Shown here: piece after piece, positions 11,345 to 25,260 of the stretch
Numbering within the stretch: position 1 is the first letter of the stretch
How the letters are laid out: each line of letters opens with the position of its first letter
From: Ignavibacteria bacterium
GTDB lineage: Bacteria; Bacteroidota; Ignavibacteria; Kapaibacteriales; UBA4661
Direction of reading: 5' to 3'
Length of the DNA stretch: 64,000 bases
Assembly: GCA_013298775.1 (NCBI GenBank)
Contig: JAAFIV010000003.1
Span: 1 to 64,000 of the forward strand
Made by a program: the position numbers and the translations under genes
The notes under the pieces: model-generated
What the model was told of the DNA's origin: nothing
Seen by the model: only the letters and a program-made list of their open reading frames with translations
Databases searched by the model: none

Positions 11345-11636
11345 GGTCTGGCGTGTTGTACGGTGACGAGGTGATTAAACTTTTCCTCAGTAATTTCTTT
11401 CCAAGAAATATGGAAGAGAGGATAGAACGAAGGTTTACGAGCAAAGAGTAAATTTAGATTTGCTTTTCTAGGAAAATCGTGTAGTTTAGGGCGCACCTGT
11501 TTGTGTGCATGTTGTCTCCGCAAAATCATTGATGCACAAGCCTCAGTGTACAGCGTAAGCAGCAGTACGACGACAAAGATAATTCAGTATAATTCGTTGT
11601 TCATATTCACTTTGATTTGTTCGAGGAGTGGTTTTC

Positions 11637-12758
11637 ATGTCCCGCTACGTTGTTGCTGTGATATGTTGTTTTGTCGTGATTGCCACGCAGGGAGTTCCGC
11701 TTTCTGCACAAGGTAAGAAAAAAGCGAAGGGTGCGAAAACCGCATCAGGAGCGGCTTCGGCATCACAACAGCCGAACTCTCCTCAATCCAAAACTCCTGC
11801 CTTACCAGAAGTAAAGCAAGGCGCATTGTTGGATTCAGCACAGTTGCTTATTCAGCCAACATTTATTTCGTTGGATGAAGCCCTGCGCCGTGCCGATAAA
11901 GTCTATAAACTACGCTTGGACGAAAACAACCTCACTGCCATACCCGCAACGATTGGACGTTTAGTGAATTTGCAAGAGTTATCGCTCAACTTTAACCAGC
12001 TTACAGCCTTGCCAGCAGAGATTGGAAAATTGACCAACCTGCAAGTATTGGTGCTGGATAAGAACAAAATTAAACGTCTGCCAACGGAATTGAAAAATCT
12101 GGTAAATCTTCAAAAATTATATTTGAATCATTACAATCAAATGGAAGATAGCGAAGTACCGCCAGATTACGATGCGGGTGTGGAACTACGCGCCTTGTGG
12201 CTTGCCGTAGATAGTTTGACGAAGCTGGAGACGCTGGGTTTAGGCGGAAATCGTTTGAAGGAAATTCCCGCTGGAGTATTGAGAATTCAAAGCCTGAAGC
12301 ATTTATACATCAATGATAATGCGCTTACGGAGCTACCCGACGGCATGAATAAATTGAAGAATTTGGAGCAACTTGATATTAGCAACAATCAGCTCAAAAC
12401 GCTTCCGACGGAAATTGGCAAGATGAAGAGCTTACAAATGCTGGATGTTCGTTTGAATAGTCTTTTGAAATTACCCCCAGAACTCGGCGACTGCTCGGCA
12501 ATGACAGAATTAGATATCGGTTTCAATTTGCTGAAAGAATTGCCAGAAGAAATTGGGAATTTGACCAAACTTGAACGCATCAACATTAGTAATAATCGGC
12601 TTTCTACGATACCTGCAAGTGTAGAACGGTGGGAAAAGTTGAAAAAGCTGAAGATGGTGGATAATCCAATTAAAGATGATGCGGATGTAGCAATGAAGCT
12701 CCGAAAGCTACAATTCCGCAAACCACCACCATCAATTGAACGAGATATAAAGCGGTAG
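11637..12758 (+). CDS. Secreted leucine-rich-repeat protein
   Basis: A 373-aa protein with a signal peptide (hydrophobic segment about 4-20, likely cut after LSAQ). A Lys/Ser/Pro-rich linker follows, then about nine 23-residue leucine-rich repeats of the type LQELSLNFNQLTALPAEIGK and LEQLDISNNQLKTLPTEIGK. The consensus LPxEIGxLxxLxxL is the plant/bacterial intracellular-Ras-group-like LRR, usually a protein-binding scaffold. The ATG at 11637 is preferred to a GTG at 11628 because GAGGAG (11623-11628) sits 8 nt upstream. No catalytic domain is attached. A strong terminator follows at 12781. Its location, periplasm or surface, is inferred from the signal peptide only. Confidence 0.88.
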   Translation: MSRYVVAVICCFVVIATQGVPLSAQGKKKAKGAKTASGAASASQQPNSPQSKTPALPEVKQGALLDSAQLLIQPTFISLDEALRRADKVYKLRLDENNLTAIPATIGRLVNLQELSLNFNQLTALPAEIGKLTNLQVLVLDKNKIKRLPTELKNLVNLQKLYLNHYNQMEDSEVPPDYDAGVELRALWLAVDSLTKLETLGLGGNRLKEIPAGVLRIQSLKHLYINDNALTELPDGMNKLKNLEQLDISNNQLKTLPTEIGKMKSLQMLDVRLNSLLKLPPELGDCSAMTELDIGFNLLKELPEEIGNLTKLERINISNNRLSTIPASVERWEKLKKLKMVDNPIKDDADVAMKLRKLQFRKPPPSIERDIKR

Positions 12759-13080: not shown

Positions 13081-15504
13081 ATGTCCAAGGGCAGTGCTGG
13101 TAAAGTGTACTTTGTATTGTACCTTGCCGTAATTCTGGAACTTCTTATCATCATTGTAGAACGCGACGAAGCGGAAGAAGGTTTGCACAAAAAGACAAAA
13201 GAGTCGATGAAAATTGTGCAAAATATCTTATCGCAGCTTCAAAGCGGCTCTGGTAACTATGATATGAATGTTAGTCCGAATGACCTTATTATTATTCAGG
13301 ACAAAGCGACGTTGGAAGCTCTTCCGAAAGAGCAGAGAATCAAGCGTCAAAAATCATATAGTGTAAAAGTGAGCGTTACCGACGTATCCGAAGCCAAGCC
13401 TGGTGAAGGAGAAGGTGAAGGCGGCGGTGGCGGCGAAGAAAAGAAAGATTACACACTCACCAAACTCGCTAACGTTCAAGAGCTAACCTATCAGGTTTTC
13501 TATACAGAAACGCCGAAAGGTGAGTCGCAGGACGTTGCACCTCGCTTGCCAGATAGTACCTTTAATGGAAAGCGTCTGCGCGAATTTAAGCCAGGCGATG
13601 TGGCTACGTATGCCGACCCAACACAAGGTGGAAAATCAACAAACTGGAACTTGTTGGATGTTCGCCAATTGAAACTCGACGTGCCAGCAACGTATGAATA
13701 CACCAAGCCCGAAGGCGGTTGGAAAAAGCCGTTGTATAGTTTGGCTGTTGCTGGAACACAGGTAGATAGAGGTGCGCAAGCAAAAGACACTATTTTCTTT
13801 TATGATAGCGTCAAGTCCGATAAAGATTTTGCCAATAACGGCAAACTTTCATCACGGACATTTACCGTAAACTTCGACCCAGGCGAAGAGCGCAAAGACG
13901 GCTGGTATAAACTCCGTTTCTTCTCTAGCACCAATAAGATTCTTGGTGTGGATTTTGAAGCTGGCTCAAAAGAAATTAGCGATGAAGACCAAGTAAACGT
14001 TGGCGTTGTAAAGCTCAAAGTAAAAGCATTGCGCTCGGTAATGAGAGAATTGCAAAAAGAGCTTGATGGTAAAATGGAATTGCGCGACGTATGGTACGAC
14101 GGCTCTGGCGATTTTAATACGCGCCTGAAAGCCGTTGAAGAGCTAGACGCAGCCTTGAAACTTGGTCGTGAATTGAATAAAGATAACGAAGAAGTGTCGA
14201 GCAAACTTACGTTGTATGAATACATTGTAAAGCTCACCACACCAGGATTTTCAGCGTTCCTTTCGCAAAACCGTAGTACGATGGATATTGATGTGCAAGT
14301 GCGCAAGCCAGATGCACAGCAGCCAGCACCACGCGTGAGCGACCTCGACCCGAAAATCATTACTTTCGATAAGTTGAATAAAACGATTATTACGTTCGTT
14401 TTGTCTCCCGCTTCGTACTTCAAGCCGGGTAATCCCGAAATTGAAATTAAAGGTACGCCTTCTCTGGTTGGTCAATATCGTATAGAGCCAGATGTTGCTA
14501 CTGGCGAGACCGCACCTGCTCTGACGGGCGCGGCAGCAAACCAACCACGTAAATACCGCATGGTATTTGATAAGCCAATTGCGGCGGGTACGTATAATCT
14601 CAAAGTAACTTATCGTGGTGGCGGGAAAATGGACACCGCAACAAGTGAACTCAAAGTATTGCCAAGTATGCTTGATAACAAGAGTATGAAAGCAATTGCT
14701 GCGCTGAAATTGTACTATGGAAAACGTCTTGCCTTCCGTGCAAAATTGCCACTTGATGCAGAATTGCCGTTGCAGCAATTCAAGATTGATTATCAATTAG
14801 GTAACGAAAAGAAGATGCAGGATAATCCGTTCTCGGAATCGTATGTTGGTCCGAATATTCCAGCTTCGGCGAAGAAAGTGAAAATGGAAGTGGTGTGGAT
14901 TAACCCAGGCACAGGTGAGCGCGTTCCGCTTCTTTCCAAAGAAGTAACGCCAGACCAAACTCCACCAGATATCGCTTGCCAGTCTGCGATTGCGGAATTG
15001 AAATCTAGCGGTGCTGAAGCTCCAAAGAAAAAAGCAACTGGTAAAAAACCAGTTCAGCCAGCAAATTTCCAAGTGGTCATTAAAGGTATTTCCGTTGATT
15101 ACGAAGTACCGATTGACGCTGATAACAAAGACCCGAATGCAAGTAAAAGTATCAAAGCCACCTTAGGTGAGGTAGAATCGGACGGTCCAGCGGATATTGA
15201 TTTTACGGCATCGGAAACGAAGCTCAATATCTATAATGGTGATGAACCAGACCCAACCGCAGCTTGGAGTGCAACCGCAACAACCTTTGGTATTATTAGT
15301 GGCGAGTTTGATGCGGCAAGCGGTTCGTTCCCTATCACGATTCAAGTAAAAGATTTGCCGCCAAAGCCACCGGGAGAAACTCGTATTTTGCGAGGAACGA
15401 TTGCGGTGAAAGTTGGCGCGAAAATTGTAAATCGTAAAGCTGGTACATCTGCGAAGTCATCTGCTCCGCCATGTATTATCCCGATTAACATTCCGTATCA
15501 ATAA
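13081..15504 (+). CDS. Membrane-anchored periplasmic protein, GldM/PorM-like topology (unassigned)
   Basis: An 807-aa protein with a short cytoplasmic N-terminus, a single transmembrane helix (about 10-27, VYFVLYLAVILELLIIIV) and no cleavage site. A charged helical segment follows (28-60), then a long periplasmic region of beta-rich domains. Residues 110-125 are a Gly/Glu linker. A second helical region lies near 320-385, and Ig-like stretches near 440-545 and 660-800. The C-terminus is Pro-rich. One TM helix, a helical stalk and several Ig-like domains is the layout of the T9SS motor protein GldM/PorM. I see no decisive sequence match, and the usual neighbours GldK/GldL/GldN are absent, so I leave it unassigned. 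It opens a block of four envelope genes. Confidence 0.6.
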   Translation: MSKGSAGKVYFVLYLAVILELLIIIVERDEAEEGLHKKTKESMKIVQNILSQLQSGSGNYDMNVSPNDLIIIQDKATLEALPKEQRIKRQKSYSVKVSVTDVSEAKPGEGEGEGGGGGEEKKDYTLTKLANVQELTYQVFYTETPKGESQDVAPRLPDSTFNGKRLREFKPGDVATYADPTQGGKSTNWNLLDVRQLKLDVPATYEYTKPEGGWKKPLYSLAVAGTQVDRGAQAKDTIFFYDSVKSDKDFANNGKLSSRTFTVNFDPGEERKDGWYKLRFFSSTNKILGVDFEAGSKEISDEDQVNVGVVKLKVKALRSVMRELQKELDGKMELRDVWYDGSGDFNTRLKAVEELDAALKLGRELNKDNEEVSSKLTLYEYIVKLTTPGFSAFLSQNRSTMDIDVQVRKPDAQQPAPRVSDLDPKIITFDKLNKTIITFVLSPASYFKPGNPEIEIKGTPSLVGQYRIEPDVATGETAPALTGAAANQPRKYRMVFDKPIAAGTYNLKVTYRGGGKMDTATSELKVLPSMLDNKSMKAIAALKLYYGKRLAFRAKLPLDAELPLQQFKIDYQLGNEKKMQDNPFSESYVGPNIPASAKKVKMEVVWINPGTGERVPLLSKEVTPDQTPPDIACQSAIAELKSSGAEAPKKKATGKKPVQPANFQVVIKGISVDYEVPIDADNKDPNASKSIKATLGEVESDGPADIDFTASETKLNIYNGDEPDPTAAWSATATTFGIISGEFDAASGSFPITIQVKDLPPKPPGETRILRGTIAVKVGAKIVNRKAGTSAKSSAPPCIIPINIPYQ

Positions 15505-15539
15505 TCCGTATTGAAAATACTCATTGGGTAAATAGTCAT

Positions 15540-15591
15540 TATTCCTTGAGCAATTCTGCGGAAAATTTCTGAAGATATTTCGCAAGGAATA
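15540..15591. other. Imperfect intergenic stem-loop
   Basis: TATTCCTTG (15540-15548) is complementary to CAAGGAATA (15583-15591) with partly paired sequence between. It lies between the membrane-anchored protein and the next envelope gene. No T-run follows, so it may be an RNA-processing or stability hairpin rather than a terminator. Confidence 0.4.
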
Positions 15592-15654
15592 CTTCAATAA
15601 ATCCTTTAGAAATTATTACTATTCATCATTTTACTGATTGTAAGGATGCTGTTT

Positions 15655-17445
15655 ATGCGTAGCCTACATCGTAGCATATTCACAAGTTTGCTGGTTGCGG
15701 GAGTGTGGATGTCCTCAGCAAACCTTTCTGCTCAAGAGCTTACAAAAGCCTTCTTGCGAAGAATGGACTGGTATAAATACTCAAATATCTCTGTATTTGA
15801 GGCGGATGGTTCTGCTGTGAAGCGTTTCAAAGAAACCTTTACACCAAGTTTGCCGCGTACTGCTGCGCTTGAAGCTGCCGAGCAAGAATGTACCAACACC
15901 GATGATATCCGTAAGCGTATTACCAAAAAGCAGCCTGTACCGCAAGCTCTTATTGACGAAGGCGGTAGCCCTCAGGATTGCGAAGTGGTCAAGCTGTATT
16001 ACACAAATCTTGCCGCACTTGTTCAAATTGGTAAAGTCTATATCGTTACCGAGCGTTATCAAGAAGGACAAGAATTGAATATCTTGGGTGTTATTCCCAT
16101 TCAATCACCCGCTACTCCCGTAGCTGCGGCTGACCCCGATTTCTTGAAGAATTCCTTGAATGCTCCTCTTTCAACAGGTTTGATGGATGGCGCAGACCTT
16201 CGACAATTCAAAACAAAAGAGTTTGAAAAAAACGATTCTACTGGACAAATGGAGCCAGTAAAAGGTTCGATTGAGAGTACGGGTTCGGAAAATATGTATG
16301 ATTACTTGAAAGCAATTATCAAGCAAAATCCATCCGAGAAAACAAACCTCATTCGCCCGAGCCAAACAGTGGCAATGAAGATTAACAAGGAAATCGTTAC
16401 AAAAATGATTGCTGAAGATAAAGTCAGCGATTATGTGATGATTACTGAAGGTGAGCCGCACAAGGCTATTCCGAGTGATAAAACCTTTTTGGATGAAATT
16501 ACCATCGGTGCAGCCGACCTTATTAGCTGGCGGCACTACGAAGACCCTGCAAACGTACAAGGCGAGCCGACAAACTTGCCGAAATATGGCGTAGAGCTTC
16601 GTTTAGGCAATGACGATATTGGTTATCCATCGTTCTGGACAGAGCGTGCAGCCGCCAACTTCTTGTGGGATGGCGTAAAACTTGGCGCAATTCTTCCTTC
16701 AGCACTTTGGGCGCCTCAGTTGCTAAATTTGATGACAATACCCCGCCGCCAATCAGCCTTGCGTGAAATTGGTGGTGTGAACTTTGGTGTAGATTTCCCC
16801 TTCAAGTTGATTGACAAAAGCGGTGTGTTTAATCTTGGTGGTTCGTACATGATTGGCAATGCTGTTCAGTACAACTACGACGGTTTGTTTGCAGATGAAG
16901 GTGCCTTCTTGCCGAATGGCAGACCCGAATATACACGCTTGCGTCGTACATTCCTGATGCGTGCGCACGGTGCTGCTACGTACACGTTCTCTATCGGTAT
17001 TAACGACCCAGACAAAGAAAATCAAGGCTATTTTATTCGCTTCAAAATTGGTATGGCAGGATATTCTATGGAAGAATTCCGCCGCACAAATGATTGGCAA
17101 CAAATTCAAGACCCTTCTGCGCCAGGTGGCGTGCGCTGGCCCCGTCTTGAGGAAGATGCAAACCCATTAATGGAACGTACTGGAGGCGCAAACCTGAAAA
17201 TTGGTCCGCTTTTCCGTATTGAGTATATGGCGGCTGGTCTTTCTGCGCCATGGGGTTCGTATTTGCAGTTCTTTGATGGTGCAATTACAGGACAAGGCTG
17301 GTTGCAAGCACCAATTAGCGATACAGGATTCTTTACTGCTATCCGTTTGGATTGTCGTATTTTCGCACCCATCACACGCAGTGCATATCCTTGGGAGCAT
17401 AACGTGATTGCTATTCCTTCGGTGCGCTTTATTTTCCGTTGGTAA
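15655..17445 (+). CDS. Probable outer-membrane protein of the 13-21 kb envelope block
   Basis: A 596-aa exported protein I do not recognise. The signal peptide (about 5-25, ending LSAQ) is followed by a soluble N-terminal half with helices and two cysteines (about 77 and 105). From roughly residue 330 come alternating hydrophobic/polar strands with aromatic girdles, typical of a beta-barrel (GVNFGVDFPFKL, IRLDCRIFAP), ending in VRFIFRW with a C-terminal aromatic residue. ATG 15655 is preferred to ATG 15646, because AAGGA (15642-15646) overlaps the latter and lies 8 nt before the former. A periplasmic domain fused to a barrel would suit an outer-membrane partner of the upstream anchored protein. 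That is an inference from adjacency. Confidence 0.65.
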   Translation: MRSLHRSIFTSLLVAGVWMSSANLSAQELTKAFLRRMDWYKYSNISVFEADGSAVKRFKETFTPSLPRTAALEAAEQECTNTDDIRKRITKKQPVPQALIDEGGSPQDCEVVKLYYTNLAALVQIGKVYIVTERYQEGQELNILGVIPIQSPATPVAAADPDFLKNSLNAPLSTGLMDGADLRQFKTKEFEKNDSTGQMEPVKGSIESTGSENMYDYLKAIIKQNPSEKTNLIRPSQTVAMKINKEIVTKMIAEDKVSDYVMITEGEPHKAIPSDKTFLDEITIGAADLISWRHYEDPANVQGEPTNLPKYGVELRLGNDDIGYPSFWTERAAANFLWDGVKLGAILPSALWAPQLLNLMTIPRRQSALREIGGVNFGVDFPFKLIDKSGVFNLGGSYMIGNAVQYNYDGLFADEGAFLPNGRPEYTRLRRTFLMRAHGAATYTFSIGINDPDKENQGYFIRFKIGMAGYSMEEFRRTNDWQQIQDPSAPGGVRWPRLEEDANPLMERTGGANLKIGPLFRIEYMAAGLSAPWGSYLQFFDGAITGQGWLQAPISDTGFFTAIRLDCRIFAPITRSAYPWEHNVIAIPSVRFIFRW

Positions 17446-17581
17446 TTTATGCTTCAATGCGCATGAATTGGCACACTCTGTGTGTGCTAGATTTTAGCTA
17501 GATTTTTGAGAATAACCTTTTGAACTTGAATTTTGATTATTGAGAAATCTTTCTCATTCAATGATTTCAGACCGTAATCCT

Positions 17582-19141
17582 ATGAAAAAACTTTCTTTGG
17601 CTCTGGGTTCGTGTGTCGCGCTTGCTTTTGGCGCATCCACGCTATCGGTACAAGCACAGTCACCTGCTCCCGATTCTTCTGGCGGCGGTGGCGGCGGTAT
17701 TCCGAAAGCATTTACGCAAATTGATGACCGCGCTCTTCCCTTCCTGAGCCGTTGGACGGTGTGCGAAGCGCAGGTACAAAAGCTGATTCAGCAATACTTC
17801 AAAACTATCGGGAAAGAACCCGGACCGGATTTGGCAAAGATTTCCATTTTGGGTGAACCCAAGAAAAATGGAAAATATGAATTGTACAAAATCCAGTGTG
17901 GAAGTGCCATTGCGGTCAAGAAAGAACTTGATGACACCATGCTGCAAGGCGTGAAAGACCTCATTGCCGCGCCTGTGGGTGTGGAAGGTGAGGAGTCATA
18001 CTGCCACGACTTCACCTCTGTTTCAGCAGTAGGTGGTAAGGTTTCCACCGAAATCGACAAAAAAGTCGGTGTTGGTGAAAACAACTTCCGTATGCCGACA
18101 GGTGGCCGTCAGTATATTTCGCTTTCGCTCTTTGAACAATTTCTTCGCGTGGGTAATACAAACTGGTGGATTCAAAACATCATCGGCAATGACCCCGCAG
18201 GTTATATGTTCTTGCACGCTGGCGAAGCAAAAATTTTAGCGCGTCGTCCGCTTATTGACAACTACGATAATAACACACGCCGTGTTGTACCAAACCTTTT
18301 GAAACTTCATGCAGGTGTTGTGTATCGTTTGACGGATAATGTCGGGAATCCAAACCCACGTTTTGCTGAGGGCTTGCTTGGTCGTCGCCGTATCAGCATG
18401 GGTGCAGAGCCAAAAATCGCAGGTGGTCTTGAAGGTTGCTTGACGTTAGGTGAGGATAATAAAACAAGTGTTATCGGTGCTGCTGTCAATGTTGAGATTC
18501 CCATTGGTAGTCTGAACGAAGCTGTTCCCGTGAGCGACCCAGATTCTTACGCTCGTGTTGCTTTACCGCGTGGACGGAACTTAGATTTTATCAGCCGTAA
18601 TCCTGATTTAGAGTTTTTGCCAACATTGCCACGCCCAGATGGTTCGCCAGCAAATGAGCTTGTTAGTCCGCTTTTGCGCCGTAATGGTCAATTCACCTTC
18701 TACTACACTTGGTGGTTAGATACCGAAGGCGAAAACCCGCCGGATAACATCTTCCGCATAGATTTAGGTGTAAACATCACGGAAGTTCAGGAAGTAGCAC
18801 TTGTGCGCCAACGTAGTACGGGTTTTGTCTTTTTGAATTCTAGCAATATCCGTCCCGCAACTGTTGGTGGACCAAGTCTGCAAACGTATTTGCCAACAGA
18901 TTTTCGCGACTGGGTGTATGCTCGTTTTGAATATCGCAACGAAACAACATTCCCGTTTGGATTTTATGCACAATACTCGAATCAAATCTTAATGGCGGGA
19001 ACATATATGCCGCTTGCTGGAAACTGGCTCTATTTGGAAGCAAAAGTCGGATTCCCCTTGCGCGGCGATGTTGCTCGTGGATACGAACTGCCTGTGTACG
19101 CAATGCTTTCGCCGGTCTTCCGCATCCAGATTCCACGCTAA
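17582..19141 (+). CDS. Probable outer-membrane protein of the 13-21 kb envelope block (second)
   Basis: A 519-aa exported protein without a recognised family. The signal peptide MKKLSLALGSCVALAFG-ASTLSVQAQ is followed by a Gly tract, a mixed domain (about 30-170) and a long region of amphipathic strands from about 175 to the end, finishing VFRIQIPR. The build is like the preceding gene (soluble domain, then barrel-like region), but I see no clear sequence identity between them. The upstream in-frame ATG at 17540 would put 14 residues before an otherwise perfect signal peptide, so 17582 is chosen. A short GCACAC/GTGTGC hairpin lies in the 136-bp gap upstream. A good terminator follows at 19215. 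Confidence 0.62.
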   Translation: MKKLSLALGSCVALAFGASTLSVQAQSPAPDSSGGGGGGIPKAFTQIDDRALPFLSRWTVCEAQVQKLIQQYFKTIGKEPGPDLAKISILGEPKKNGKYELYKIQCGSAIAVKKELDDTMLQGVKDLIAAPVGVEGEESYCHDFTSVSAVGGKVSTEIDKKVGVGENNFRMPTGGRQYISLSLFEQFLRVGNTNWWIQNIIGNDPAGYMFLHAGEAKILARRPLIDNYDNNTRRVVPNLLKLHAGVVYRLTDNVGNPNPRFAEGLLGRRRISMGAEPKIAGGLEGCLTLGEDNKTSVIGAAVNVEIPIGSLNEAVPVSDPDSYARVALPRGRNLDFISRNPDLEFLPTLPRPDGSPANELVSPLLRRNGQFTFYYTWWLDTEGENPPDNIFRIDLGVNITEVQEVALVRQRSTGFVFLNSSNIRPATVGGPSLQTYLPTDFRDWVYARFEYRNETTFPFGFYAQYSNQILMAGTYMPLAGNWLYLEAKVGFPLRGDVARGYELPVYAMLSPVFRIQIPR

Positions 19142-19214
19142 ACTCGCGTAGCATCTCGCTCGGTAGCGCACACGCTTGTTTCGTCTTGTCCACTCTTTGT
19201 AATTGTTGTAATTT

Positions 19215-19249
19215 AAGCCCGTACAATCATTTCTTGTACGGGTTTTTTT
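19215..19249 (+). terminator. Rho-independent terminator
   Basis: AAGCCCGTACAA (19215-19226) pairs with TTGTACGGG (19234-19242), followed by seven T. It lies 73 bp after the second outer-membrane protein gene and closes the 13.1-19.1 kb transcription unit. Confidence 0.88.
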
Positions 19250-19356
19250 ATTTTTCGTGGATGGATTGAAGAGAAGCGGTCATTCCCGCAGATGCGGAAA
19301 TCTCGCACAAAAACACAGCTTCAGCCAATCTTCCTTCTGAACTATTCCTTGAATCT

Positions 19357-20865
19357 ATGACATGTGTGTTTTCATTTGCTCAATCGTTACGGCAGCAATA
19401 TCTTTCTCGTACCGCGTTGGTGCTGTGCATGATAAATCTTTCCCTGCTGGCAGAAACCATGCTAGCGCAAACGCCGTCCCCGACAAAAAATCAACCAAGT
19501 ACACAGCCTACAAGCAAAGCTCCAGCTCCGCGCGTGGGAACACCAAAAGCTGCTCCGCCAGCCTTACCGCCAAATCTTTTTCGCCGTGAGATTGAAATTG
19601 CTGATTCGGTAAAAAAAGCAAATATCTTGCAAGGCGTACAGCAAGGCGCACGTATTCAAGCCACCGACGACCGTTTGAAGCTCTTTATCCAAAACGTAGA
19701 TATTACGCGCTTTCCCGAAGTGGGCTTAATTGTCGAGGCAATGAGCAATGACACTTCTGCCTTTGAAACATTAGAAAATCAAAAACTTTCGGTTTTGGAA
19801 AATGGTAAAGCTCGCCAAGTGGTGTCGGTAAAGAAAATATCAGCAGAAAAGCGTATTCCGATGGACTTCGTGTTTGTGCTGGATATTACTGCCACGATGC
19901 AAGACCACATCAACGCTGTACGCGGAAACGTGGACGCTTTTGCAAAAAATCTTCTTGCCAAAGGGATTGATTTTCGCTTGGGTTTGGTGATGTATTCCGA
20001 TTCCGTTGAAGTTGTCAAGCAGCCAACAAGCGATGTGCAGGAGTTTCTCTGGTGGCTGCGCGACGTGCAAGCGCGGGGCGGCAAAGACGAAAAAGAGAAT
20101 TCGCTCGAAGCACTCGCTGCCGCTTCCAATCGCATTAAATACCGTCCTTCGGCAAGCAAAATGGCATTGCTCATCACCGACGCGCCCTATCACCAAAAAG
20201 GCGAGGACGGCGACGGAACAACCTCCTACACAACGCAAAGCATCATTGATACGCTCATAAAGCGCGAAATGAAAGTGGTGCCAATTACCAAAACGGTATT
20301 TCAGCAATACAACAAAATTGCCAATGCCACACGCGGCACAACCTTCGATATTACCAAGCCGTTTGCAACGATTCTGGACACGTATTCGCGCAATCTCACG
20401 AATATGTACGCTATCACCTATCGCTCGGAAGAACCTGCATTGCCTGATTCTATCAACGTTGCGGTGGTGAATGAGCAGAATTATGAACTTGTCCGCCGTA
20501 CCATTCCTATCTTGCAGATTGGGCGCAAACTCATCATTGAAGATTTGCTCTTTGCCACGAACAAGGCTATTCCCGTAGCAACCTTCCAGCCCCAATTAGA
20601 GCGCATTGCAGAGTTTATGATGAATCGTAAAACGGTCGTGATTCGCGTAGAAGGTCATACCGACGGCATTGGCGGAGCGGAGTACAACTTGCGCCTCTCC
20701 ATGCAACGCGCCGAAGCCGTGAAGACCTACCTTATTCAGCGCACGGTGGCTGCACACCGCATCCACACGCTAGGTTTTGGGAAATCGCGCCCCATTGCAA
20801 CGAATGACACGGATATTGGTCGCCGCTTAAACAGGCGCACAGAAATTGTAATTTTGGAAAAGTGA
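19357..20865 (+). CDS. VWA-domain protein with C-terminal OmpA peptidoglycan-binding domain
   Basis: A 502-aa envelope protein. An N-terminal hydrophobic signal (about 18-37, LAQ cleavage) precedes a Pro/Thr/Ser linker. A von Willebrand A domain spans about 165-345, with the MIDAS-like motif DITAT at D176, LGLVMYSD and LLITDAPYH. The C-terminal OmpA/MotB domain (about 400-502) has VEGHTDGIGG, LSMQRAEAVKTYL, GFGKSRPIATN and RRLNRRTEIVI, which bind meso-diaminopimelate peptidoglycan. The second Ser of the classical DxSxS is Thr, a tolerated variant. An in-frame ATG at 19429 would give a shorter signal peptide. It probably tethers an outer-membrane assembly to the cell wall. Position suggests, but does not prove, a link to the preceding envelope genes. 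Confidence 0.9.
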   Translation: MTCVFSFAQSLRQQYLSRTALVLCMINLSLLAETMLAQTPSPTKNQPSTQPTSKAPAPRVGTPKAAPPALPPNLFRREIEIADSVKKANILQGVQQGARIQATDDRLKLFIQNVDITRFPEVGLIVEAMSNDTSAFETLENQKLSVLENGKARQVVSVKKISAEKRIPMDFVFVLDITATMQDHINAVRGNVDAFAKNLLAKGIDFRLGLVMYSDSVEVVKQPTSDVQEFLWWLRDVQARGGKDEKENSLEALAAASNRIKYRPSASKMALLITDAPYHQKGEDGDGTTSYTTQSIIDTLIKREMKVVPITKTVFQQYNKIANATRGTTFDITKPFATILDTYSRNLTNMYAITYRSEEPALPDSINVAVVNEQNYELVRRTIPILQIGRKLIIEDLLFATNKAIPVATFQPQLERIAEFMMNRKTVVIRVEGHTDGIGGAEYNLRLSMQRAEAVKTYLIQRTVAAHRIHTLGFGKSRPIATNDTDIGRRLNRRTEIVILEK

Positions 20866-20955: not shown

Positions 20956-23900
20956 ATGAAACCATTCATTACGTCCCGCCCCGCAGCCGCCTCTTCTCTT
21001 GCCTTTCGCGGCATTTCCTTCGCGCTCTGTCTCTGTGCAATGTTGCTTGTGAATCTTCCTGCACAGGCGCAATTCCAACGTTCCTACATCATCCCCGATG
21101 TGTGTGCGCCTGGTATGGCGACGTACATTGAAATCATCGGGCAGCACGATTTACGCGGCAATTTCGGCAAAGACAGCATTTACGCCAACAACCCAGGCGA
21201 TTCCGTCCGTGTGGAGCTTGCTAATCCTGAAGATTCTGCCCGCGTGATTGTGGGTCCGCTTACCGTTGCGTGGAACGGGCGCATGATTTCCACGCACATT
21301 TTCGTCCTCCCGAATGTACAGCCGAATGATAGTATTTGGTCGAATCTGCGACCTGAGTTTCGCATACCGCTTCAGGTAGTTGTGCGCGGTCGGCAAGATT
21401 CCATCCGCTTCACTGATACCGTCTATATCGTCCGCCCTTTTACCCGCGTGGAAAGCTATTCTCGCGCAATCACGGCAGATTCTATCGTCATTGGCACAAC
21501 ACTTCCCGACACCACACGCAGCCTTCGTTCACGGCGCGGCGCGATTATCGCCGAAAGTGTACGTTTGCAAGCGGGAAAAAAGTACAGCGTTTCAACGGTT
21601 GATACCGACCCACGAACACCTGGAAATCAAGGCTACTTGCCCTTTGTATGGCTCGTGCGCGGCTTGTTCGATGGTAATGGTGCAAGTGTGGATGTCAATG
21701 GAGTTGGGAAAAATGGTGGTGCGGGCGGCGGCGGCGGCGGTGGACCCGTTCAAGATCCAGCACTGTTCGGCTCAAGCGGAAATTCCCAACGAAGTAGAGG
21801 TGGAGATGGCTTTACGGGAGGTGGAGCTGGTGGTTTGAATAACTCACGAAGTGGTACATCCTTTTGGGCAAATGGCGGTACAGGTAGTTTTACATTCTTA
21901 GCTACTGGAGACCTTCCCGCGCGACCTCCTGTCCAAATGGACGGTGGAGCGAGCTTAAACGGCGTACATGGCGGGCTTTCAGGTAATAACTTTTCTGACC
22001 ATCCACAATCGGCAGGCGGCGGTACAGGGCATCCTTTTGGACGGTCTGGTGTAGGTTGGTACGGCAATGACGACCCAGAAGTAAGCGCAGGCGGCGGACA
22101 CGGACGACAAGAAGGTGAGGATGGCGATGCTGGCGGCTATAGGGTTGGCGGCTTTTCCACTGTAAAAGGGCGCAGTGGTGGTGGTGCCGTTGGCGGCGGC
22201 GGCTCGCATGGGAATGCTATGGTCATTCCGATAGCAGGAGGTTCTGGTGGTGCAAGTGGTAATCCACAGGGTGTTAATATTTGGGGCGGCGGCGGCGGCG
22301 GCGGCGGCGGTGCCATCCGCATCGCAGGAGCTACTGTACGCAATGTTTCTTTATCTGCTCGTGGTGCAGCTCGGCAGCGTGGTACAGGAGGTATTGGACT
22401 AATTCCTGATGGTGGTGAAGGTTCAGGCGGTCATGTCGGAGTGCAGTCTAAAACTCGTGCAGATAATATCATTGCTGACGTTCGTGGTGGTGGTGATGAA
22501 AATAGTGGTTCAGGAAGAATGCGTTTCGATATACCAGAGTCTTTCTCTTCAATTTCTTTTTTGCCCTCTATGTCGCCCACGTCTGCTTATCATACCAGTA
22601 TAACTCTTGACACAATGGCAGCCGTGCGCAGCCCCTATTCCTCACCTTTTCTCGTGCGTGGTTTTTCAGGATATTCTGCAAAATCTCTTCGTTTCTTCAC
22701 TCGCACTACAACAGGCACGTGGCAGCGAAAAGATACTACCATCATCATTGTATCTCAACTCATTCCGCTTGCTTATCAAGGAGTGTTTCCACCCACAAAC
22801 CAAATGCCTGGAACAGCTCAAGATTCCTTGCTGTTCATCGTTGGTGCGGAAGAAGTACGCCCCGAGATTTCGATAGATACTCCACCCTACACCATCAATC
22901 CACCTTGGATTCTCACCCAAGCAGCCGCAAACATTCTCCGCGTCCAGCCTTTGCCGCTTATTTCGGTCTCGGTCGGACACAATCGTGATACCTCGTTTGC
23001 GCAATTCACGCGCTGCCAAAACGATGTAAATTCCACTACCATTACGATTACAGTACGCAATAATCGCGGCGGACCCTTGGAGGTAAGTAACATCACCTTT
23101 CGGGGCGAAGCTGCGCCGTATCTGCGTGCCGAGCCAAGTAGCTTTGCGGTTGTGCAAGGTGCGTCGCGGCAAGTAACGGTGAGCTTTACGGGCAATGCCT
23201 CGCTTCCAGCAAATATCAATTTCTTCACTGGAGATATGCTCATCGCGCACAATGACACCTTTCCCGATATTGGCGGTGCAGCGCGTCCTAAACTTTGGAC
23301 AATACGGCTGACCGTCCCAGTAAACACCGTGCGCTACACCATGAGCCTCACAAGCAATACGCCAGGGCTGCTCCAAAGCGTACCGCAACGAGATACAGTG
23401 CTAGACTTCGGGCGTGTCGGTTTGGGCGGGCTTGGCGTAACCGAACGCGTGCAAATTTTCAATACAGGACAAACGCCAACGATTATCACTCCTCTGCGCT
23501 ATACCGTGCGAGCCGCACAACCACTTGCTTCTACGCCATTTCAGTTTGAGGAAGTAACCGATATTGTTAGCCCAAGGGGTTCGGTTGTCGTTCCCGTAAC
23601 ATTCCTGCCAACAAGGATTGGTGCGGCTTCTGAGCAGCGCGTCCTTGTGCAACTGCGCAACACCGACGGAAACTGCCCCTTTTCCGCCACCTACACCGTG
23701 ATTTTACGCGGCACTGGCGTACAGCCCCAGCTCGACACAACGCGCTCAACGCGCTCGCTCGACTTCGGTACACTCACTGTTTGTTCGCCTTCCACGACCG
23801 CAAGCGCATTGCCGATTACTCTCTTCAATAGCGGCAACGACCCCCTTGAGGTGCGGAGTATTCGCATGAGTTCGAGTACAATTTCGAGTACAATTTCGAG

Positions 23901-25260
23901 TACCAATCCCAGCATAACACCAGCATTTACGCCGACGATAGGTAATTTCATGATTCCCATTGGCGGAAGCCAGTCCTTCATGCTGCGCTATCAATCGCCG
24001 ACCACAACCCGTGCCACGCAAACGGTGCGCGATACCGTCCTTCTCGAAACCAACGATGCGCGGTTTGGGCAATCGAATCCGTACCGTATTCCTGTGAGTT
24101 TGACGCTGAATAGCTTCAATCCTTCACTGCGCCTTATTCCGCCCGATACGCTTGCCTTTGGTGCAACGCGCTATTTTTCGCGGCAGCAGCGCACGATTGT
24201 TCTGGCGAATAACGGCAACGTTGGGATGACGGTAACGCTCGACGCGAGTGCGCTCCCTGCGCCATTCCGCATCATTGCACCCCAGCCGCCGCGTATTTCC
24301 TTGCTTCCGGGCGAGACGCAGCAGATTCGCATTGAAGCCTTTCCCACTGAAACATTGCCAGAAAACGTGCTAGTACGCGGTGTTGTGCGCTTTACTGCCA
24401 CGCCGAGCGATGGCGTACAATGTCCTTTCACGCTCGCGCCGCTTGTCGTGACGCTGCTTCCGCGGGGTCCCGCTTCCATGCAAGCCACGCTCTGGCTCGA
24501 TACTCTCAGCAATGTAAATATGCGCCGCGACACGGTGATTCGCCTCTGGGGGCGCGTAGAAACTGCCGTGCAAGGCAGAACTGATAATCTCCGCGCAGCA
24601 GTGCTGATTCGCCGCAGTATGTTTTTCCCGAAAGCGGTGCGCTCGGCGTTTGGTGCGGCAAGTATTGAAGTCTCGCAAGTCCGCGACCGCGACCGCGCCG
24701 TGATTGTTAGTGTGCCAAACGTTGCATTAAACGAGACACCAAGCGTGATTGCAGAGATTCAAGGCACACCAATTCTCACTGATACCGCGTGGGCAAACGT
24801 GGAATGGCTGCCCGCCGAAACAGCATGGGCGCGGCGCGACAGCGTCTATTCGATAGATAGTCTGAGAAATGGCTTCATTGCTACCTTTGTGCCGCTTTTG
24901 CGCAATCAACCACGCCTCGTGAGCGGACCCGTGATTGGTCAAATGCCGCGCCAAATCGTGCTTTTAGGCATTACGCCCAATCCCGCCCGCGATGAAATAA
25001 ACCTTGAACTCCGCGCTACAACAGGAGGGGAATACGTTGTGCAAATCGTAAACACACTCGGACAGCGCGTCGCAAGCTACTCATGGATGCACGATGAGCA
25101 GAATTTCGCAAACAATCTCGCAAACAACAGAACGCCTTCGGAAGCCCGTCTTTCCTTGCCTCTCGACCTCAAGGGTATTGCTGCAAATGGAACGTATTTC
25201 CTTCGCGTGATAACGCCGCAGGGTGATAGTGAATCAGCTCTTGTGCGTATTGAGCGGTAA
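20956..25260 (+). CDS. Giant secreted glycine-rich protein with ASH/choice-of-anchor-D domains and T9SS sorting domain
   Basis: A 1434-aa surface or secreted protein. After a signal peptide (cut near residue 36, PAQAQ), residues about 230-520 are extraordinarily Gly-rich (runs of up to nine Gly, GGGAGGLNN, GGGGSHGNA), encoded in part by a (GGC)8 microsatellite at 22285-22308. From about 680 to 1190 come repeated Ig-like ASH/choice-of-anchor-D modules, recognisable by LDFGRVGLGGLG, LDFGTLTVC and LAFGATRYF strands with PLEVSNI-type segments. The C-terminal 85 residues form a Por/T9SS type A sorting domain (GITPNPARDEINLEL, VQIVNTLGQRVASY, GTYFLRV). T9SS would move it across the outer membrane and cleave the tail. 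The Gly-rich part may form a fibre or adhesive layer; that is speculation. Confidence 0.9.
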   Translation: MKPFITSRPAAASSLAFRGISFALCLCAMLLVNLPAQAQFQRSYIIPDVCAPGMATYIEIIGQHDLRGNFGKDSIYANNPGDSVRVELANPEDSARVIVGPLTVAWNGRMISTHIFVLPNVQPNDSIWSNLRPEFRIPLQVVVRGRQDSIRFTDTVYIVRPFTRVESYSRAITADSIVIGTTLPDTTRSLRSRRGAIIAESVRLQAGKKYSVSTVDTDPRTPGNQGYLPFVWLVRGLFDGNGASVDVNGVGKNGGAGGGGGGGPVQDPALFGSSGNSQRSRGGDGFTGGGAGGLNNSRSGTSFWANGGTGSFTFLATGDLPARPPVQMDGGASLNGVHGGLSGNNFSDHPQSAGGGTGHPFGRSGVGWYGNDDPEVSAGGGHGRQEGEDGDAGGYRVGGFSTVKGRSGGGAVGGGGSHGNAMVIPIAGGSGGASGNPQGVNIWGGGGGGGGGAIRIAGATVRNVSLSARGAARQRGTGGIGLIPDGGEGSGGHVGVQSKTRADNIIADVRGGGDENSGSGRMRFDIPESFSSISFLPSMSPTSAYHTSITLDTMAAVRSPYSSPFLVRGFSGYSAKSLRFFTRTTTGTWQRKDTTIIIVSQLIPLAYQGVFPPTNQMPGTAQDSLLFIVGAEEVRPEISIDTPPYTINPPWILTQAAANILRVQPLPLISVSVGHNRDTSFAQFTRCQNDVNSTTITITVRNNRGGPLEVSNITFRGEAAPYLRAEPSSFAVVQGASRQVTVSFTGNASLPANINFFTGDMLIAHNDTFPDIGGAARPKLWTIRLTVPVNTVRYTMSLTSNTPGLLQSVPQRDTVLDFGRVGLGGLGVTERVQIFNTGQTPTIITPLRYTVRAAQPLASTPFQFEEVTDIVSPRGSVVVPVTFLPTRIGAASEQRVLVQLRNTDGNCPFSATYTVILRGTGVQPQLDTTRSTRSLDFGTLTVCSPSTTASALPITLFNSGNDPLEVRSIRMSSSTISSTISSTNPSITPAFTPTIGNFMIPIGGSQSFMLRYQSPTTTRATQTVRDTVLLETNDARFGQSNPYRIPVSLTLNSFNPSLRLIPPDTLAFGATRYFSRQQRTIVLANNGNVGMTVTLDASALPAPFRIIAPQPPRISLLPGETQQIRIEAFPTETLPENVLVRGVVRFTATPSDGVQCPFTLAPLVVTLLPRGPASMQATLWLDTLSNVNMRRDTVIRLWGRVETAVQGRTDNLRAAVLIRRSMFFPKAVRSAFGAASIEVSQVRDRDRAVIVSVPNVALNETPSVIAEIQGTPILTDTAWANVEWLPAETAWARRDSVYSIDSLRNGFIATFVPLLRNQPRLVSGPVIGQMPRQIVLLGITPNPARDEINLELRATTGGEYVVQIVNTLGQRVASYSWMHDEQNFANNLANNRTPSEARLSLPLDLKGIAANGTYFLRVITPQGDSESALVRIER
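22285..22308 (+). repeat. (GGC)8 microsatellite in coding sequence
   Basis: Eight consecutive GGC triplets encode the poly-Gly run of the giant T9SS cargo protein. Because the unit is 3 nt, length changes would alter the Gly tract without frameshift. A shorter impure Gly tract lies near 21722-21745. Confidence 0.9.

Follow-up and report, generated by a model that had tools for sequence, protein, structure and literature searches.

A conserved four-gene block spanning the cell envelope in Kapabacteria, candidate half of a GldLM-type motor

We have analyzed a block of four genes in a stretch of 64,000 nucleotides (the window) from an Ignavibacteria bacterium of the order Kapaibacteriales (GCA_013298775.1, contig JAAFIV010000003.1, positions 1 to 64,000). 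On balance, and by a small measure, we favor reading the block as the shaft plus the outer-membrane and cell-wall half of a GldLM-type ion-driven motor, which would probably energise the type IX secretion system (T9SS) in Kapabacteria and in some of their classmates. The computed evidence comprises the conservation of the operon, the topology of its proteins, a predicted barrel for gene 3, a phyletic profile shared with a GldL-like family, adjacency to that family in class relatives and in paralog copies, and the presence of SprA throughout the class sample. The host genome has 5.19 Mb and is 99% complete, and its closest named relatives are metagenome-assembled genomes labelled Candidatus Kapaibacterium or Ignavibacteria. 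We found no published description of the module among the papers listed by an open-access library.

To our knowledge, the power supply of the T9SS has been studied only with GldLM/PorLM. In this class there is a contrast, with SprA in all 73 sampled genomes and a GldM match in none. If the motor reading is true, it explains how the T9SS is driven in part of the class, provides a second and in places minimal design (an axle of about 190 amino acids, aa) to set against GldLM, and gives markers for annotating the motor. The TXSScan survey of 2016, whose T9SS model contained GldK-N profiles, reported the system for 60 of 97 Bacteroidetes genomes and for none outside that clade (PMC4793230).

Conservation of the gene block

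The four open reading frames (ORFs) are all intact, on the same strand, and have the places and the layout that an earlier note on this DNA had given them. The features of the block are:

13081..15504, + strand: gene 1, 807 aa; single-transmembrane (TM) inner-membrane protein with a helical stalk and an immunoglobulin (Ig)-like periplasmic rod; proposed motor shaft
13090..13158, + strand: TM helix region of gene 1 (aa 4-26), which contains Glu20 and is followed by E27-R28-D29-E30 (28-row alignment)
15646..17445, + strand: gene 2, 599 aa; N terminus signal-like, then a soluble domain and a barrel-like region at the C terminus that ends in ...FIFRW
17582..19141, + strand: gene 3, 519 aa; signal-like N terminus, soluble domain, predicted outer-membrane beta-barrel
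19357..20865, + strand: gene 4, 502 aa; exported VWA-OmpA protein (24 aligned rows, window included)
19864..20355, + strand: VWA domain of gene 4, aa 170-333 (PF00092, 41.3 bits, cut-off 23.8)
20578..20835, + strand: OmpA domain of gene 4, aa 408-493 (PF00691, 71.1-73.8 bits, cut-off 27.2)

The ORF of gene 3 starts at 17540 with TTG (533 aa), the ATG at 17582 (519 aa) being the better start. The signal-like N termini of genes 2-4 were read from the sequence by eye. Genes 1-3 had been described as matching no recognised family, and indeed they gave nothing over the cut-offs of Pfam or NCBIfam and nothing in PHROGs at E <= 0.01.

The linkage of the four genes is far beyond chance. Gene 1 had a match in 41/41 genomes of the order (own genome included), which belong to 25 genera. 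In 27 order-level loci (window in, paralog loci out), automatic clustering with tblastn rescue of three misses found genes 1-2-3 together in 26 and genes 1-2-3-4 in 25. One exception, L053, stops after gene 1 close to the edge of its contig; the other, L060, shows no gene 4. A second set, that overlaps with the first in genomes and is not independent of it, consisted of 80 named GTDB loci (80 of 118 relatives). The order 1-2-3-4 on one strand was kept in 63 of these 80, with one gap of 1,602 bases between neighbours and all others of 475 bases or less. As for the remaining named loci, four had genes 1-3 only despite 6,957-9,643 bases of sequence downstream, eight end at most 1,411 bases after gene 1, and five are gene 1 copies behind a GldL-like gene, in assemblies that each hold the main locus as well. 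Among the 31 clustered loci, no family of flanking genes was shared by more than 7. The earlier note had named predicted structures free of GldM-like D1-D4 domains, together with a lack of conserved gene order in relatives, as what would speak against its proposal; since the order is conserved, this objection does not arise.

The transmembrane helix and the rod of gene 1

Gene 1 codes for a protein with one hydrophobic segment, at the N terminus. In the AF2 model, a monomer of moderate confidence (mean pLDDT 75.2, pTM 0.43), a helix formed by residues 6-55 is followed by beta domains, and residues 411-805 have a general resemblance to chains of the Ig/FN3 type (best VIA Z 8.9, with an rmsd of 2.0 over 83 residues). 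We aligned 28 of the 30 members of the gene 1 cluster (alignment A1), leaving out L041, that shares the C-terminal Ig part only, and L052. Out of 59 invariant columns, 35 were located within aa 1-58 of 807. The TM helix and the adjoining stretch are thus the most constrained part of gene 1, which is unusual for a mere anchor. Glu20, within the TM segment, is invariant in the 28 rows. Gene 1 is shorter (186-621 aa) but still has the TM helix in the 12 class-level loci from outside the order; class-level forms have E, Q or N in place of Glu20, together with invariant Y, F and Y and an invariant E-R-D just after the TM segment.

The GldL-like partner family

Outside the order, the gene immediately upstream of gene 1 encodes a protein with a core of two TM helices in 9 of the 12 class-level loci (L158-L166); the other three (L155, L156 and L157) have no such gene directly upstream. 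Barrel-type genes follow gene 1 in most of these loci. The proteins of this GldL-like family (A5) have, as read from the sequence, two TM helices, an invariant Glu in the second one (TM2) and a cytoplasmic tail, some members having extra TM segments at the N terminus. Of 57 sequences collected, a motif filter retained 52, and the alignment was made from 47 distinct cores. The TM2 Glu was invariant in 47/47. As the filter required part of the first helix (TM1), the invariance of TM1 is partly a product of selection, and that of the TM2 Glu is unselected.

Within the order the family is present in 41/41 genomes, by match coordinates away from the block. Up to three kinds of GldL-like protein were found there, with about 440-560, 320-520 and 265 aa. 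In four of the five loci with the ORF resolved (L237, L240, L246 and L248), the gene that comes after the third kind (261-272 aa) encodes a single-TM axle-like protein of 491-514 aa; L234 of the own genome is the exception. The N terminus of this second axle-like protein has the same type of TM start as gene 1. Apparently, the third-kind gene and the second axle-like protein are another motor pair in Kapabacteria.

A few other observations concern these gene neighbourhoods. The own genome contains a second full-length copy of gene 1, of 744 aa (G000:C12:178123-181054; L039, L174), with a GldL-like gene of 466 aa some 300 bases upstream. No genes 2-4 were detected next to this copy within its locus of 19.9 kb. 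The second GldL-like kind (L233, L239) is followed by a gene of 695-774 aa, an AAA/TPR-type neighbour that in L239, the one member tested, has an AAA ATPase domain. At class level, the operon of L158, L159, L162 and L163 consists of the GldL-like gene, a short gene 1, a gene of cluster c4 and two barrel pairs in the order c1-c2-c1-c2. In L159, L162 and L163 it is preceded by a gene of cluster c6, with DUF2254 in L162 (one member tested). The c4 protein is of Ig type, and in some class relatives its gene separates gene 1 from the barrels. We considered it as a split-off part of the rod, an idea left unsupported since the similarity of c4 to gene 1 was non-significant (0.4%).

The predicted outer-membrane and cell-wall components

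The earlier note had proposed two barrel-like proteins after gene 1. For gene 3 the model supports it, with a beta-barrel behind a mixed N-terminal domain (pLDDT 75.5, pTM 0.64; moderate confidence). Nearly all of the 50 matches listed by Foldseek were outer-membrane barrels by their titles, with weak scores, the best one being FapF (E 4.7e-4, query TM-score 0.24). For gene 2 the barrel follows by homology to gene 3 only. The C-terminal parts of both proteins are homologous (hhalign probability 97.1, E 7.4e-11) and gene 3 is itself modelled as a barrel, so gene 2 would also end in one. The pair can be followed into the class, where hhalign shows c1 to be a homolog of gene 2 (93.5%, P 2e-7, against P 0.45 for the reversed control). 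For c2, homology to gene 3 is probable (29.6%, P 6e-4, against P 0.10 when reversed).

Gene 4 is a VWA-OmpA protein, as had been said before, with both domains far above the Pfam cut-offs. Proteins of the OmpA-domain family bind peptidoglycan, and by analogy gene 4 would do so through this domain. The arrangement across inner membrane, cell wall and outer membrane that had been proposed for the block is supported.

Likeness to known outer-membrane parts of the T9SS would be one of role. Genes 2-4 may correspond to the PorK/PorN ring, PorP and PorE, in that they would provide partners for the motor rod at the outer membrane and an OmpA protein that binds peptidoglycan. In contrast to the PorK/PorN ring, gene 3 is modelled as a barrel and genes 2 and 3 have no profile similarity to GldN (about 1%). 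The suggested comparison with PorN and PorV thus fails for GldN/PorN, and as for PorV, the chain 8gl6_F of a T9SS complex entry, which we take to be PorV, was just one of many barrel matches to gene 3. Gene 4 differs from PorE (NF052230), which it reached with 57.2 bits against a cut-off of 600 and through the OmpA domain only, and adds a VWA domain.

Phyletic distribution and T9SS components

We searched a sample of 296 genomes of the phylum, 73 of them from the own class, taken as the same set for the two gene 1 profiles (A1 and A9), A5, SprA, GldM and GldN. Profile A1 detected gene 1 in 36 genomes, all of the own class and 12 of them outside the order. With profile A9, gene 1 was found in 39 genomes, and the GldL-like family (A5) in the identical set of 39. 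Presence was mixed within two families, f12 (4/16) and f17 (5/10), and when shuffling was restricted to within families, the exact match of both profiles had a p of 2e-6. SprA was found in 229 of the 296 genomes, including 73/73 in the class and all 39 carriers of A9 and A5. Among the genomes of the order it was present in 41/41. GldM (TIGR03517) was detected in 74 genomes of the phylum and in 0/73 of the class. The corresponding number for GldN (TIGR03523) was 71, with a single match in the class that looks spurious (E 8e-4, below the cut-off, four internal stops) in a genome without the module. Hence every carrier of the module has the T9SS translocon SprA, and no GldM match and no credible GldN match.

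A second link to the T9SS was found beside the GldL-like genes. At 14 of 30 fetched loci, tblastn with three reference proteins located a gene for a large PorU-like C25 protease, related to the PorU sortase, in the 1.5-kb flanks of the GldL-like match; three of the 14 are the loci of the reference proteins themselves. Two of these references were checked and matched Peptidase_C25 (E 4e-71 and 8e-60); against PorU-type models they reached 190-233 bits, below the strict cut-offs. None of the GldL-like loci from the own genus (L173-L178, six of the 30) had a PorU-like gene within 1.5 kb.

Proposed mechanism

The GldL-like protein would surround the very conserved TM helix of gene 1; its gene is present in several copies in the own genome and is not adjacent to the block. 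Proton flow through the invariant TM2 glutamate of this ring would turn or bend the gene 1 axle, whose Ig rod would carry the motion or a conformational change across the periplasm to the barrels of genes 2 and 3. These might pass the motion to the translocon or to surface proteins, with gene 4 pinning the assembly to the peptidoglycan. From the results above we infer physical pairing, proton use, rotation and coupling to SprA.

A wider version is that a separate motor lineage, made of a GldL-like ring, an Ig-rod axle and a barrel pair, replaces GldLM and its ring for the T9SS in much of the class, and that Kapabacteria run several versions of it. We put this forward tentatively, as a possibility with the greater chance of being wrong.

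Comparison with GldLM and alternative explanations

MotAB, ExbBD and GldLM form the class of 5:2 motors, in which a ring encloses a single-TM axle that extends into the periplasm (PMC9389320). In this general idea the proposed module agrees with them. Two GldL-like members and gene 1 had no match in Pfam or NCBIfam to the MotA, MotB, ExbB or ExbD families. With GldLM it has in common that a two-TM core with an invariant TM2 Glu stands beside a single-TM protein with a long periplasmic rod. For reference we aligned canonical GldL, GldM and GldN from 16 of 30 loci, leaving aside 14 that were on the opposite strand of the stretch fetched. GldM follows GldL in the 16 loci and E49 is kept in the 16 GldL rows. 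In Flavobacterium, this TM2 glutamate of GldL is required for secretion (PMC8986121).

Several results weigh against the motor reading, and the first are those on homology. With the 16-row GldM profile, hhalign gave 1.5% for gene 1, and the GldL-like family gave 0.2% with GldL. We compared full and core-only profiles, with reversed and column-shuffled decoys. The core-only score of A5 with GldL was 16.4; in each of two tests, no fewer than 5 of 100 decoys did better. The best alignment path does pair the TM2 Glu of both families, with a non-significant score. A PDB sequence search with A5 retrieved coiled-coil matches at chance level only (best E 0.089), whereas the canonical GldL profile recovers the GldL structures. 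Two A5 members had no NCBIfam match at E <= 5, and the TIGR03513 matches of the own genome were sub-threshold and at loci other than those of A5. As to gene 1, TIGR03517 had no match in the own genome even at E <= 10, and gene 1 itself retrieved nothing from the PDB by sequence at E <= 10. GldM/PorM was absent among the 50 matches that Foldseek and VIA each listed for the moderate-confidence model of gene 1, generic Ig chains, and this absence is not evidence against GldM. The candidate assignment of gene 1 to the GldM family was rejected, with the family model, the profile comparison, the structure search and the PDB sequence search all without a significant match. The earlier note had called gene 1 GldM/PorM-like and suggested a diverged T9SS motor. 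What stands of it is the architecture (single N-terminal TM and beta-domain rod), the GldL-like partner family and the link to the T9SS by SprA and the PorU-like genes; membership in the GldM family and homology to GldM or GldN do not.

Two more differences from GldLM are the position of the GldL-like genes, away from the block in the order, and the length of the rod protein, which goes from 186 to 807 aa between relatives. Because architecture and context agree and the family model and profile comparison do not, we class the block by analogy with the motor modules of GldLM type; it is possibly a relative that has diverged very far, and not a family member. Gene 1 could still be an extremely diverged true ortholog of GldM, with genes 2-3 as diverged canonical T9SS parts and the block as the T9SS core operon of the class. 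Having the same architecture and, in class relatives, the same position after a GldL-like gene as canonical GldM has after GldL speaks for this descent, but no significant profile-profile signal was found for GldM or GldN and TIGR03517 matched in 0/73 class genomes, and we regard it as unlikely. It overlaps with the T9SS motor reading, from which it differs in descent and not in function, so that our probabilities for the readings add up to more than one.

The window itself has no adjacent GldL-like gene, and the motor activity of the block is a prediction from sequence. Both points would fit a passive scaffold, free of energy input, in which the rod, the barrels and the OmpA protein hold the outer membrane to the cell wall and the inner membrane; Ig rods and OmpA-domain proteins often serve as tethers. 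However, mere anchoring would not require the TM helix to be the best conserved part of gene 1. Nor does such a scaffold account well for adjacency in class relatives to, and an identical phyletic profile with, a two-TM protein that bears an invariant intramembrane Glu. We consider the scaffold the least probable of the alternatives. The shared profile of A9 and A5 is itself partly a matter of linkage where the genes are neighbours, which also reduces its value for the motor.

The remaining objections concern the link to the T9SS. In the class, 34 of 73 genomes have SprA and neither A5 nor A9, so the module is not required for every SprA. Outside the class, 83 genomes with SprA had neither a GldM match nor the module at the thresholds used; a limited reach of the GldM model may therefore explain part of its absence from the class. 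Besides, the GldL-like copy of the PorU-linked kind in the own genome (C67, L235) has no PorU-like gene nearby. An alternative is a GldLM-like ion-driven trans-envelope machine that powers another task, such as gliding, outer-membrane traffic of lipids or proteins, or the assembly of a surface structure. The 34 genomes point in that direction, as does the lack of any recurrent T9SS gene in the regions flanking the block (judged from clusters, of which a minority was identified), and two dedicated barrels with a wall anchor could form a complete machine. Yet all 39 carriers have SprA, no canonical GldM and no credible GldN was found in them, and PorU-like genes are near the GldL-like genes in nearly half of the loci. 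We find this alternative rather unlikely, though the strongest of the three, and the motor that serves the T9SS remains the reading that we favor.

Neighbouring genes and related sequences

Downstream of the block, one gene was examined as a cargo candidate, the only one:

20956..25260, + strand: neighbour outside the core; 1434 aa, choice-of-anchor D repeats, T9SS type A sorting domain at the C terminus (marginal)

Its sorting domain reached 23.7 bits with TIGR04183 (cut-off 23) but 21.7 with PF18962 (cut-off 27), and the same cluster appears in 4 of the 31 clustered loci. Just upstream of the block (11628-12758) is a leucine-rich-repeat protein with a signal-like N terminus, whose cluster is likewise found in 4/31 loci only. 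In seven order-level loci a gene of cluster 5 (1144-1211 aa) is located upstream. From its N terminus it may be a ribonucleotide reductase, and it is not counted in the system. Finally, other large ORFs of the own genome share the C-terminal Ig part of gene 1 (start near aa 417 or 486, end at 806) with 41-50% identity, at G000:C4:36876-37844 (L040) and G000:C14:10667-11773 (L041).

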